DNA of 38,551 nucleotides from Candidatus Heimdallarchaeota archaeon (GCA_023705985.1 BPTO01000009.1:1-38551), one strand, 5' to 3'. Counted from the first letter of the stretch, positions 9,989 to 17,489 are shown. Program-made: numbers and translations. The notes: generated from the letters alone by a model not told the origin.

Positions 9989-10600
9989 TTGTTCCGAAAT
10001 TTTATGGGTTGGCTTCTAGGTACATCAAAGTCAGGTAGAGACCACATTGTTAACCTTCGTTTAACTGTTAGAAGGTTAGAAAGAGCGCAAAGAAAACTAG
10101 AGCGTGATGAATCCAAGATGCAACTAAAAATGAAACAATCTATTCAGAGGGGAGACATAGAAGGAGCACGTTTGTTTGCAACAGACATCGTTCGTAGTAG
10201 GAAATGGGAGTTAGGATATCAAAAATTAGTTTCGAGAATAAATGGTTTGATTTTTAAATTAGAGCGCGCAGATTCAGCTGCTAGTATGGCTGAAGAAATG
10301 CATGGTGTAGCAGATGCTTTGCGTTCAGCAAATGCTCAATTACAAATTCCTGATTTAGACAGAGTTATACAAGATATGGAAGCGTCAATTGATGGAATTG
10401 AAGAGAGTACTGGAACATTAGAGGACGGAATAGACGATTTATTGGTCTCTGACACAGATCCTGTAGAAGTAGATAGATTAATAGAACAAACTGCAGTAGA
10501 ACTGGGTGTATCAACTCAAGCAGGATTACCAACTGTTGGCGTTGTAGAGACTGATGATTTAGAAGCTGAAATCCAAAAATTAAGAAAGAAAGAAGAATAA
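9989..10600 (+). CDS. ESCRT-III Snf7-family protein, Vps2/24/46 (CHMP1-3)-like
   Basis: RRLERAQRKLERDESKMQLKMKQSIQRGDIEGARLFATDIVRSRK...AASMAEEMHGVADALRSANAQL; C-terminal MIM1-like DDLEAEIQKLRKK; TTG start. Confidence 0.9.
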   Translation: MFRNFMGWLLGTSKSGRDHIVNLRLTVRRLERAQRKLERDESKMQLKMKQSIQRGDIEGARLFATDIVRSRKWELGYQKLVSRINGLIFKLERADSAASMAEEMHGVADALRSANAQLQIPDLDRVIQDMEASIDGIEESTGTLEDGIDDLLVSDTDPVEVDRLIEQTAVELGVSTQAGLPTVGVVETDDLEAEIQKLRKKEE

Positions 10601-10614
10601 AAAGGTGAAATGTC

Positions 10615-11277
10615 GTGGGACTAAAAAATTGGTTATTTGGAGAAAGTAGAAAAGAAGATTCTGGAGCTCTTGCCACTCTAAAAGCTCAAATAAATAAATA
10701 TGAACATGAAGGTCGCAATCTTGAAAGACAAGCTGATGAACAGAAAGTTCTAGCTTCTAAAATGCTCCAAGCAGGTAATAAGTCCGGTGCTAGACAAGCT
10801 CTTAAGCGTAGGACTGTTTACACCAAGCGTTTAAACACCGTTCATAATATGCTTATGAATCTTCAAGCTCAAATGGATAGTATTCAAACTGCAAAATCTA
10901 CTGTTGATACTGTTAAAGCTATGGATATAGGTACTAAAATTGTCGATCAGCAATTTACCGAAATATCTCCAGAGAAGGCTGAACGAGTAATGGACAAGGT
11001 AATCACTCAGCGTGATAAGCTTGAAATGATGACTGAAACATTGACCGATTCTGCCCTTTCAGATGGAATTTTAGGCATCGAAGATGATAATGCAATTGAC
11101 GAACAATTAGCACAACTTGAAGCAGAAATGGAACTAGGCACTACAACATCCCTTCCTGATCTTTCTGGTCTTCCTGCAACGCCTACAGGAGCTGATAAGG
11201 AGGAAGAGGATACTTCTGAGCTAGAAGCAGAACTTGAAGGTTTGCGTAAAAAAGTGTCAGATAAAGACAAAAAATAG
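10615..11277 (+). CDS. ESCRT-III Snf7-family protein, Vps20/32/60-like
   Basis: MLQAGNKSGARQALKRRTVYTKRLNTVHNMLMNLQAQMDSIQTAKSTVDTVKAM...EISPEKAERVMDKVITQRDKLEMMTETLTD; C-terminal SELEAELEGLRKK; GTG start. Confidence 0.9.
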   Translation: MGLKNWLFGESRKEDSGALATLKAQINKYEHEGRNLERQADEQKVLASKMLQAGNKSGARQALKRRTVYTKRLNTVHNMLMNLQAQMDSIQTAKSTVDTVKAMDIGTKIVDQQFTEISPEKAERVMDKVITQRDKLEMMTETLTDSALSDGILGIEDDNAIDEQLAQLEAEMELGTTTSLPDLSGLPATPTGADKEEEDTSELEAELEGLRKKVSDKDKK

Positions 11278-11395
11278 CTTTTCCCTTCTCTTTTTCTTTT
11301 TACTTAGTTAAATGAGAGCAACAGAAGTATTATATTTATAATCTATGAATGAAATAATAGAATAGAAACTTACTAATCGGTGGTTGTAACTTCAA

Positions 11396-12538
11396 TTGTC
11401 AGCTCAAGGTTTAATTGATCATGCGAGAGAATTTGCTGTAAAGGCATATAATTTTGATAAAGAGAAGAATTATAGTGAAGCAATTCCACACTATTTAGAT
11501 GCAGCTGAAGCATTGATGAAAGCTATAAAATTCGAGCGTAATCCCCAAGTAGCTCGCACTTTAAGGAAAAAAGCCGAAATGTATATAGCACGTGCACAGG
11601 AACTGCAAGAACTTATCAAGAAACGAAAAGAAAGAAAAACTAAAGTTTCAGACGATGAAGACGATAAAATAGAGGGAGCTTTACAAGATATTATTGTAGT
11701 TGAAAAACCTTCTGTGACTTTGGATGAAATAGCAGGATTGAAAACTGCTAAACAAACTCTACGGGAAGCTATAGTATTACCTTTAATGAGACCTGATCTC
11801 TTTTCAGGGGCACGCCGTCCTTGGAAAGGAATTTTACTTTTTGGTCCTCCTGGGTGTGGTAAGACTCTTTTAGCAAAAGCTACAGCAGCTGAAGTAGAAG
11901 CAACATTTTTCAATGTTAGTGCAGCTTCCATTATTTCGAAATGGTTAGGTGAATCAGAAAAATTAGTACAAACATTATTTAAATTAGCAAAAGAAAAACA
12001 ACCCAGTATTATATTCATTGATGAAGTAGACGCTTTAGCAGGAGCTCGTGGCGGAGAACACGACGCGATGAGACGAGTAAAAACTGAACTCTTAACATCA
12101 ATGGATGGTTTGTCAAGTTCTGAAAGTGATAGAATTGTTACTGTTGGTGCTACAAATATCCCTGAATCTATAGACGGCGCATTTAGAAGAAGGTTTGAAA
12201 GAAGAATCTATGTTCCACTTCCAGACGAAGAAGCAAGGGATGCAATCTTTCATTTGAACTCTAAAGGCGTGGAACTTGAAGATGACGTCAATTTTTCTAT
12301 TTTAGCTGAAATAACTGATGGATACTCTGGGGCAGATATTGCTATGATTTGTAGAGATGCTATCATGACACCCATCAGAGAATTAGATCTTTCTGGAGCA
12401 ATTACTGACCCAGAAATTAAAGCTAGATCGGTAACGCAAAAAGATTTTCTGGAATCACTTGAAACTATAAATCCATCCGTGAGCGACAATGAAATTAAAA
12501 AATATGATGACTGGTTTGAGGAATTTGGAAGCGCTTAA
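11396..12538 (+). CDS. Vps4-like AAA ATPase with N-terminal MIT domain
   Basis: MIT helices (AREFAVKAYNFDKEKNYSEAIPHYLDAAEALMKAIK), Walker A GPPGCGKT, Walker B IIFIDEVDAL, ATNIPESIDGAFRRRFERRIYVPLPD; TTG start. Confidence 0.96.
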   Translation: MSAQGLIDHAREFAVKAYNFDKEKNYSEAIPHYLDAAEALMKAIKFERNPQVARTLRKKAEMYIARAQELQELIKKRKERKTKVSDDEDDKIEGALQDIIVVEKPSVTLDEIAGLKTAKQTLREAIVLPLMRPDLFSGARRPWKGILLFGPPGCGKTLLAKATAAEVEATFFNVSAASIISKWLGESEKLVQTLFKLAKEKQPSIIFIDEVDALAGARGGEHDAMRRVKTELLTSMDGLSSSESDRIVTVGATNIPESIDGAFRRRFERRIYVPLPDEEARDAIFHLNSKGVELEDDVNFSILAEITDGYSGADIAMICRDAIMTPIRELDLSGAITDPEIKARSVTQKDFLESLETINPSVSDNEIKKYDDWFEEFGSA

Positions 12539-16016: not shown

Positions 16017-16086
16017 CTATTTTTGTATCTCTATGTATTCTTTGCAATCAAAGTTTAAAAAACATTGCATTTAGAAAGAGAAAAAC

Positions 16087-17088
16087 TTACTCTTTAAGCT
16101 TAAGTAATATTTTAATTGGTTTAGCTAGATTTTTATCTAAAATAAATATACGAGAGTTGTTTTTCAGTTTTGTATCTTCAATAGTTTTTTCATGGTCTAG
16201 TATTTTCCCTTTAAATAATAAATCTGGTTTAGCTAACCCATAAGTCAGTGCTAATCGAACAATAAGATCTCTTATTTTCTCTCCATGTGTCGCAATGAAT
16301 TTTACTTGTTCAAGGCGATAAAGTTCTCCACAAGCTGGACATTCTGGATTTTGTGCAAGTTCTAGTTGGGTAAACACATTACTAAGCCCATCATAAAACA
16401 CATAATTTTGTAAAGGTTGACCAATTCCAAGAATTATTTTCATAGCTTCTTGAGACATAAATCCACCAATTATAGATGATAACGTCGCAACAGCAGGAAG
16501 TAAAGCTTCTTCTTCCTCTTCTCTCTCTGCTTTCCTTTCTTCACCAAAAGGAGTACAAGCTTGAGCTAGTTCCTCTTGGGATACTAGTGGTTGACACTCA
16601 AAACAAGCTGTTTTGAAAGGAAAAATAACTTGAGCATCACCCAAAAAAGCAAACATTCCTCCTAAAATCAGAGGTTTTTTGACTCTTAGTGCCATAGAAT
16701 TAATCCAACGGCGGCCTAGGAATGTATCTAGACAAGCAATTATCACATTAGCTTTCTCATAAATTGAACTGGGAACTTTCTCCATTTTTTTGTTAAAATA
16801 TTTAATGGTTATTTCTGGATTCAATTCCTTCAGTCTTTCAGCTGCAACCTCTGATTTAGGTTTTCCGATATCTTCATCCCGAAAGAGCAGTTGCCGGTTA
16901 AGGTTTGAAAGTTCTATTGAATCAAAATCTATTATTGTAATATTTTTTACACCTGAAGAAGCTAAAATTGCACCTACATAGGAACCAATTGCACCTATAC
17001 CGACTAAAACAACAGAACATCTATCTAATTTTGATTGATCCCATCCGGGTATCAACGATTGTCGTGAGTAGCGACCGTCCTCTTCCAT
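16087..17088 (-). CDS. E1-like ubiquitin-activating enzyme (ThiF/MoeB/UBA family) with C-terminal ubiquitin-like domain
   Basis: VVLVGIGAIGSYVG nucleotide-binding loop, DFDSIELSNLNRQLLF, CFEC/CPAC zinc pairs, ACTPFGEE candidate catalytic Cys; C-terminal LLFKGKILDHEKTIEDTKLKNNSRIFIL resembles ubiquitin. Confidence 0.93.
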   Translation of the reverse strand: MEEDGRYSRQSLIPGWDQSKLDRCSVVLVGIGAIGSYVGAILASSGVKNITIIDFDSIELSNLNRQLLFRDEDIGKPKSEVAAERLKELNPEITIKYFNKKMEKVPSSIYEKANVIIACLDTFLGRRWINSMALRVKKPLILGGMFAFLGDAQVIFPFKTACFECQPLVSQEELAQACTPFGEERKAEREEEEEALLPAVATLSSIIGGFMSQEAMKIILGIGQPLQNYVFYDGLSNVFTQLELAQNPECPACGELYRLEQVKFIATHGEKIRDLIVRLALTYGLAKPDLLFKGKILDHEKTIEDTKLKNNSRIFILDKNLAKPIKILLKLKE

Positions 17089-17252
17089 CGATTTAAAGAC
17101 ACGAAAGAAAGTTAAAATAGTTTCTGTTACTAAAACTGTTATTGAAGGATTTTTGCTAAGACTGAAAATATACCTATTCTTCTAAAAATTAATAATTTAG
17201 AAAATTGGAAATTTAACTACAACAATATTAAACAAAAATAGTTAAACTCTGC

Positions 17253-17489
17253 TCAATATCCTCCTTTTGTTCGAGCAATCATATAACATTTATCTCCGTC
17301 CATGAGACCACAAGCTTTGAGAGTTTCTGCATCATCAAGTTGTTTCCCATGAAATACTAAAAGAACTGTATTGGCAGGAATTTTTTTCGTTCGAGCTACT
17401 TCGCGCTTTAATTGAGCAACAGTAGCATGTGGGTCCATAACAACTTCAATTGATCCCCCACCGATGGCTGTAACTACGGATATTTTCAT
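17253..17489 (-). CDS. Ubiquitin-like protein, C-terminus ...RTKGG-Y
   Basis: 78 aa; MKISVVTAIGGGSIEVVMDPHATVAQLKREVARTKKIP..LLVFHGKQLDDAETLKACGLMDGDKCYMIARTKGGY aligns end to end with ubiquitin. Confidence 0.95.
   Translation of the reverse strand: MKISVVTAIGGGSIEVVMDPHATVAQLKREVARTKKIPANTVLLVFHGKQLDDAETLKACGLMDGDKCYMIARTKGGY

Follow-up and report, generated by a model that had tools for sequence, protein, structure and literature searches.

What does the ubiquitin-ESCRT (endosomal sorting complexes required for transport) locus of a Heimdallarchaeota genome encode, and what is the small protein whose gene lies between those of its ESCRT-I and ESCRT-II proteins? We analyzed 38,551 nucleotides of DNA from Candidatus Heimdallarchaeota archaeon (GCA_023705985.1, BPTO01000009.1:1-38551; here the window), a whole contig of this Asgard genome. 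We conclude, with a probability of about 0.88, that the locus represents the ubiquitin-ESCRT cluster canonical for the AB_125/Heimdallarchaeum family (f1), in which the small protein, CC104 (104 aa), arose by an ancient duplication of the Vps28 C-terminal domain (Vps28-C) and is a likely adaptor.

All nine genes named in a preliminary description of the sequence were found at the positions it gave in an open reading frame (ORF) check (Table 1), and profile searches recovered Vps25, Vps22 and Vps28 along with UEV and all the other named families. As that description had it, the plus arm holds two ESCRT-III genes, vps4 and vps25, the minus arm holds ubiquitin, E1, an ESCRT-I fusion, the small protein and vps22, and the arms converge; the distance between the Vps25 and Vps22 stops, given as about 30 bp, is 29 bp. 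Its term 'complete-looking' does not fit, as profile searches found no E2, E3 or deubiquitinase gene within the locus, unlike the full Odinarchaeum cluster, which has all three. Nor does the cluster start at 9989; it reaches further left, to a zinc-ribbon/PH ESCRT-like gene.

A Vps22 scan of named genomes gave the Heimdallarchaeota metagenome-assembled genome (MAG) 18H4_34 as top relative (97% in Vps22), followed by many MAGs of Heimdallarchaeota; AB_125 and the complete Ca. Heimdallarchaeum endolithica genome are among these, and the genome of the window belongs to the same Asgard family as both. The f1 gene order is zinc-ribbon/PH, ATPase c, two ESCRT-III, Vps4 and Vps25, converging on Vps22, CC104, fusion, E1, ubiquitin and PDCD5-like, and locus comparison found it conserved in almost every genome of the family, exceptions being few. 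Hence, the cluster is not a chance arrangement. Presence and absence genome-wide were judged through family profile searches of assembly contigs; this assembly is ~90% complete, so absences from the genome are provisional.

CC104 had been described as a small coiled-coil protein. No Pfam model matches it, and its AlphaFold2 (AF2) model is instead a compact four-helix bundle (predicted local distance difference test, pLDDT, 93.7). Foldseek with this model against the PDB ranked 2j9w first and second (template modeling, TM, scores of 0.73 and 0.71, probability 1.00) and 2g3k seventh (TM 0.71/0.78, probability 0.97); both are Vps28 C-terminal domains. At the sequence level, the window Vps28-C as a phmmer query picked up CC104 of other families (3e-4 to 4e-3), and the resemblance of CC104 to the ESCRT-I fusion profile was confined to the Vps28-C region. 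In profile comparisons, CC104 from outside f1 matched standalone Vps28-C at 97.5% and f1 CC104 at 98.9%, with unrelated controls below 1%.

Some results weigh against this assignment. The Foldseek E-values are weak (0.1-0.8), as small helical bundles usually give, even if the matches are specific in rank and probability; a profile of f1 CC104 only was not significant against Vps28-C (5% probability); and no Vps28 came up when PDB sequences were searched directly with a CC104 profile. Since the f1 profile alone is not significant, the link from f1 CC104 to Vps28-C needs either structure or intermediates from other Asgard families. A 95% match between the iterated UEV28 profile and f1 CC104 was not counted as independent evidence because that profile had absorbed some CC104 members.

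In a tree of both groups, one branch with 98/98 support parts CC104 from all Vps28-C, and the split recurs in 99% of bootstrap trees; the sequences are short and fast-evolving, so the tree is only moderately strong. The tree agrees with a single ancient duplication and later losses. On the sequence evidence, CC104 is a paralog of Vps28-C rather than an ortholog. Residues W58, W66, R93, F98 and R99 (numbering of the aligned window domain) are conserved in Asgard Vps28-C and not in CC104, which has its own conserved set (E39 and K72-Y73) and has W96 and a few others in common with Vps28-C. The eukaryotic Vps28 C-terminal domain (2j9w, 2g3k) has the same four-helix fold (TM 0.71-0.78) at ~10% identity, and CC104 differs from it in being free-standing and in its own conserved residues. 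The replacement of the Vps28-C residues by another conserved set suggests that the partner of CC104 differs from that of Vps28-C.

CC104 homologs occur in 26 of the collected loci, and profile searches found them in 49 of 232 Asgard genomes, including two marginal cases; these are every f1, f7 and f11 genome and members of f2, f9, f10 and f29. The same profile searches of the 232 genomes did not find CC104 in f3, f4 or the large family f19, and in f5 gave one marginal match. Its gene lies immediately 3' of vps28 in all 26 loci (gap -8 to 70 bp), and vps22 is downstream of it in the same direction in 25. Whether CC104 and the zinc-ribbon/PH protein form a pair was also judged from their joint occurrence, which was uninformative because the latter is far more widespread.

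Having kept the fold while its conserved residues changed, CC104 would most likely serve the ESCRT-I/II assembly as one more small adaptor, whose partner is unlike that of Vps28-C. As it is small and helical and adjoins the ESCRT-I gene, and as Asgards are without a clear Vps37 (PMC9192718), it could also be the missing Vps37 or Mvb12 equivalent, an extra strand of the ESCRT-I stalk or headpiece; this is very improbable given a compact bundle without a long stalk helix, fold matches to the Vps28 C-terminal domain rather than the ESCRT-I core, and similarity to the fusion that stays within Vps28-C. We rejected this identity on fold, since the steadiness-box hairpin and stalk helix do not appear in the model. 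It is doubtful, too, that CC104 is a functionally redundant second Vps28-C, targeting the surface that the fused domain binds: the shared fold, adjacent gene and single duplication origin agree with redundancy, but the most conserved Vps28-C residues are not conserved in CC104, which evolves faster and has its own invariant set. Returning to the adaptor, we propose tentatively, and at less than even odds, its fullest form: an unrecognized, single-origin ESCRT adaptor, an additional Asgard ESCRT-I/II subunit linking that assembly to a partner other than the one of Vps28-C, that was lost in several Asgard lineages and is absent from eukaryotes as far as known.

Are the two convergent arms themselves separate functional or regulatory modules, recognition and scission, held apart by selection? 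In 35 Asgard loci with Vps25 and Vps22 on one stretch, the two genes are convergent in 26 (all 18 f1 loci, two of the five f4 loci, and f8, f11, f15, f23, f25 and f26), co-directed in 7 (f3, f5 and two f4 loci) and divergent in 2 (one f4 locus and f9). The convergent pairs are 0-48 bp apart, except at two loci with inserted genes or sequence. This prevalence of convergence favors modules, as does the direction of Vps4, which is that of Vps25 in every locus holding both; however, Vps22 runs with Vps25 and Vps4 in f3, in f5 and in some f4 loci, the minus-arm gaps of 67-164 bp make independent promoters possible, and Ca. H. endolithica (L035) has its PDCD5-ubiquitin-E1 block between Vps25 and Vps22 and on the strand of ESCRT-III. 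Given this last placement, ubiquitin is not bound to the recognition arm, and together with the co-directed families it indicates that the arms are not fixed functional modules. Separate modules are therefore unlikely. The preliminary description of ESCRT-II as split between the arms holds for this locus but not as a division into fixed recognition and scission units, and the layout is common without being universal (9 of the 35 loci differ). This orientation pattern has already been described in PMC10936438 (see also PMC9192718).

The ESCRT-I gene of the window is a UEV-Vps23-Vps28 fusion (Pfam UQ_con 9e-9, with UEV at 0.003; Vps23_core 5e-5; VPS28 1.1e-12). Fusions of this kind, ~465-490 residues long, are restricted to f1, and Vps28 is separate in other families. 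Every aligned UEV domain retains the HPN motif and is without the Cys at the catalytic position, which E2s have. At 27 of the 29 non-f1 vps28 loci examined, a co-directed UEV-Vps23 gene immediately precedes vps28; in 10 of these 27, the two predicted frames overlap. Because of this adjacency and overlap, the fusion would most simply have arisen through the joining of two neighbor genes that were already coupled. The Vps23-Vps28 fusion itself has been published for AB_125 (PMC9192718).

Table 1. Genes of the ubiquitin-ESCRT locus, in window coordinates
Feature	Position	Strand	Basis
Zinc-ribbon / coiled-coil / PH-like / C-terminal hairpin protein	7535..8953	+	Cys/His pattern, AF2, Foldseek
ESCRT-IIIA (CHMP1/2/Vps2-type)	9989..10600	+	Pfam Snf7 1.4e-18; top PDB matches CHMP1B, CHMP2A
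ESCRT-IIIB (Snf7/CHMP4-type)	10615..11277	+	Pfam Snf7 2.3e-21; AB_125 ESCRT-IIIB 9ftl at 4.7e-95
Vps4 AAA ATPase	11396..12538	+	MIT 7.4e-13, AAA 4.6e-42, Vps4_C 2.3e-9
Vps25 (ESCRT-II)	12552..13361	+	Pfam ESCRT-II 1.1e-16; PDB 9uyv, 7pb9, human VPS25
Vps22 (ESCRT-II)	13391..14125	-	Pfam EAP30 3.2e-23
CC104, free-standing Vps28 C-terminal-domain paralog, 104 aa	14219..14533	-	AF2, Foldseek, sequence bridge, tree, synteny
ESCRT-I fusion: UEV, Vps23 core/steadiness box, Vps28	14601..16016	-	Pfam
E1-like ubiquitin-activating enzyme	16087..17088	-	ThiF 4.5e-63; best PDB UBA3, then UBA1
Ubiquitin precursor ending GG-Y	17253..17489	-	Pfam ubiquitin 4e-13
PDCD5-like (dsDNA_bind) protein	17584..17979	-	Homologs in L069/L070 match PF01984, 3e-10 to 9e-10

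For ESCRT-II, PDB sequence searches placed the EAP30 protein nearer SNF8/Vps22 than Vps36 (human SNF8 5e-21 vs VPS36 2e-7), and the 7pb9 match of Vps25 is to the tandem winged helix (WH) of Vps25. The window Vps25 also carries an N-terminal extension of ~85 residues.

The gene that extends the cluster to the left is present in 24 of 24 f1 genomes, and its protein has invariant or near-invariant Cys/His within the first 80 residues. The AF2 model (pLDDT 76) comprises a Zn region, helices, a beta domain (247-343), a long helix and an end hairpin. Foldseek gave DH/PH proteins as top matches at low TM, so that the PH-like domain is supported only moderately, and the steadiness box was seen solely through weak profile similarity to Vps23 proteins. 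Its Cys pattern and topology are as expected for the published Znr_CC_PH_SB family (cog.011556; zinc ribbons, coiled coil, PH domain and C-terminal steadiness box), of which it is apparently a member and which Makarova et al. (PMC10936438) propose as an Asgard ESCRT-I component.

Other neighbors are also conserved in f1. A lone gene for an ATP synthase subunit c-like protein whose N-terminus is signal-like (9417-9755, minus strand) lies between the ESCRT-III arm and the zinc-ribbon/PH gene, and beside it is a conserved 127-aa ORF with no Pfam match (8999-9382, minus strand). A gene for a Ras/Rab-like GTPase and, convergent with it, a 261-aa ORF that has no significant Pfam match (19013-20344) remain beside the ubiquitin arm throughout the family. 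The PDCD5-like gene is linked to ubiquitin/E1 in f1 and adjoins vps22 in f9 and f10.

The window ubiquitin is the sole PF00240 match in the assembly. In all f1 ubiquitins GG is followed by a single variable terminal residue (F, S, L or Y), and in those of several other Asgard families GG is itself the C-terminus; the extra residue thus implies a maturation step by a processing protease. The C-terminal tail of the E1 has a weak ubiquitin-fold match in Pfam. Elsewhere in the genome, we found one E2 with the catalytic Cys (contig C130), a second, Cys-less UEV protein (C59), RING-type matches on six contigs (C175, C350, C232, C17 and C2 above the cut-off, C45 below), and, on C17, a JAMM protein with the HTHPGYGTFLSGTD signature and a C-terminal hydrophobic segment. 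Most g3 genomes of f1 carry a second E2, and AB_125 has two Cys-bearing E2 genes (PMC9192718; two further E2-type matches in G009), whereas this genome, as assembled, and its genus mate have one. On C130 (L001 / L087), the E2 gene converges on that of a 240-aa coiled-coil protein, also caught by the iterated Vps23-Vps28 profile and perhaps bearing another Vps28-C-like end. On C7 (L165), a second E1-like (ThiF) gene overlaps a gene with a JAB domain, and the two may belong to a second ubiquitin-like pathway.

How might these proteins work together? Identities, folds, synteny and phylogeny come directly from our analysis, and each biochemical step below, like the adaptor role, draws on homology and the literature. 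After removal of its last residue, ubiquitin would be charged by E1 and handed to the E2 and a RING E3 encoded outside the locus. The Cys-less UEV of the fusion would bind ubiquitylated membrane proteins, and its Vps28-C, perhaps also the zinc-ribbon/PH protein, would connect to ESCRT-II (Vps22 with Vps25). Vps25 would then recruit ESCRT-IIIB, followed by ESCRT-IIIA; Vps4 would disassemble the polymer, and the membrane would be severed away from the cytoplasm, e.g. in vesicle release. By its fold and gene position, CC104 may sit at the ESCRT-I/II junction. Ubiquitin-UEV binding, ESCRT-I/II assembly and ESCRT-IIIB-to-IIIA recruitment have been published with AB_125 and Odin proteins (PMC9192718, PMC11804906).

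How much of this is new? The preliminary description overstated the novelty of the arrangement, as the two-arm layout, the Vps23-Vps28 fusion and the co-direction of Vps25 with Vps4/ESCRT-III are in print (PMC9192718, PMC10936438). The AB_125 cluster (L036/L098; Hatano et al. 2022, PMC9192718) has the same order from the zinc-ribbon/PH gene to the fusion, including CC104; its contig stops at the fusion, whereas the window contig also has E1 and ubiquitin. Makarova et al. 2024 (PMC10936438) share with our results the Vps25/Vps22 co-direction pattern, Znr_CC_PH_SB and separately encoded Vps28-C genes, reported 'in some Asgard genomes', and their text gives neither which genomes nor the residue divergence. 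Because such genes were described there, the CC104 class is probably already known; what would be added is its distribution, single origin and residue divergence, a modest novelty. The locus is a well-preserved example of a known system and another clean instance of machinery that eukaryotes are thought to have inherited, here from an archaeal class often placed nearest them.

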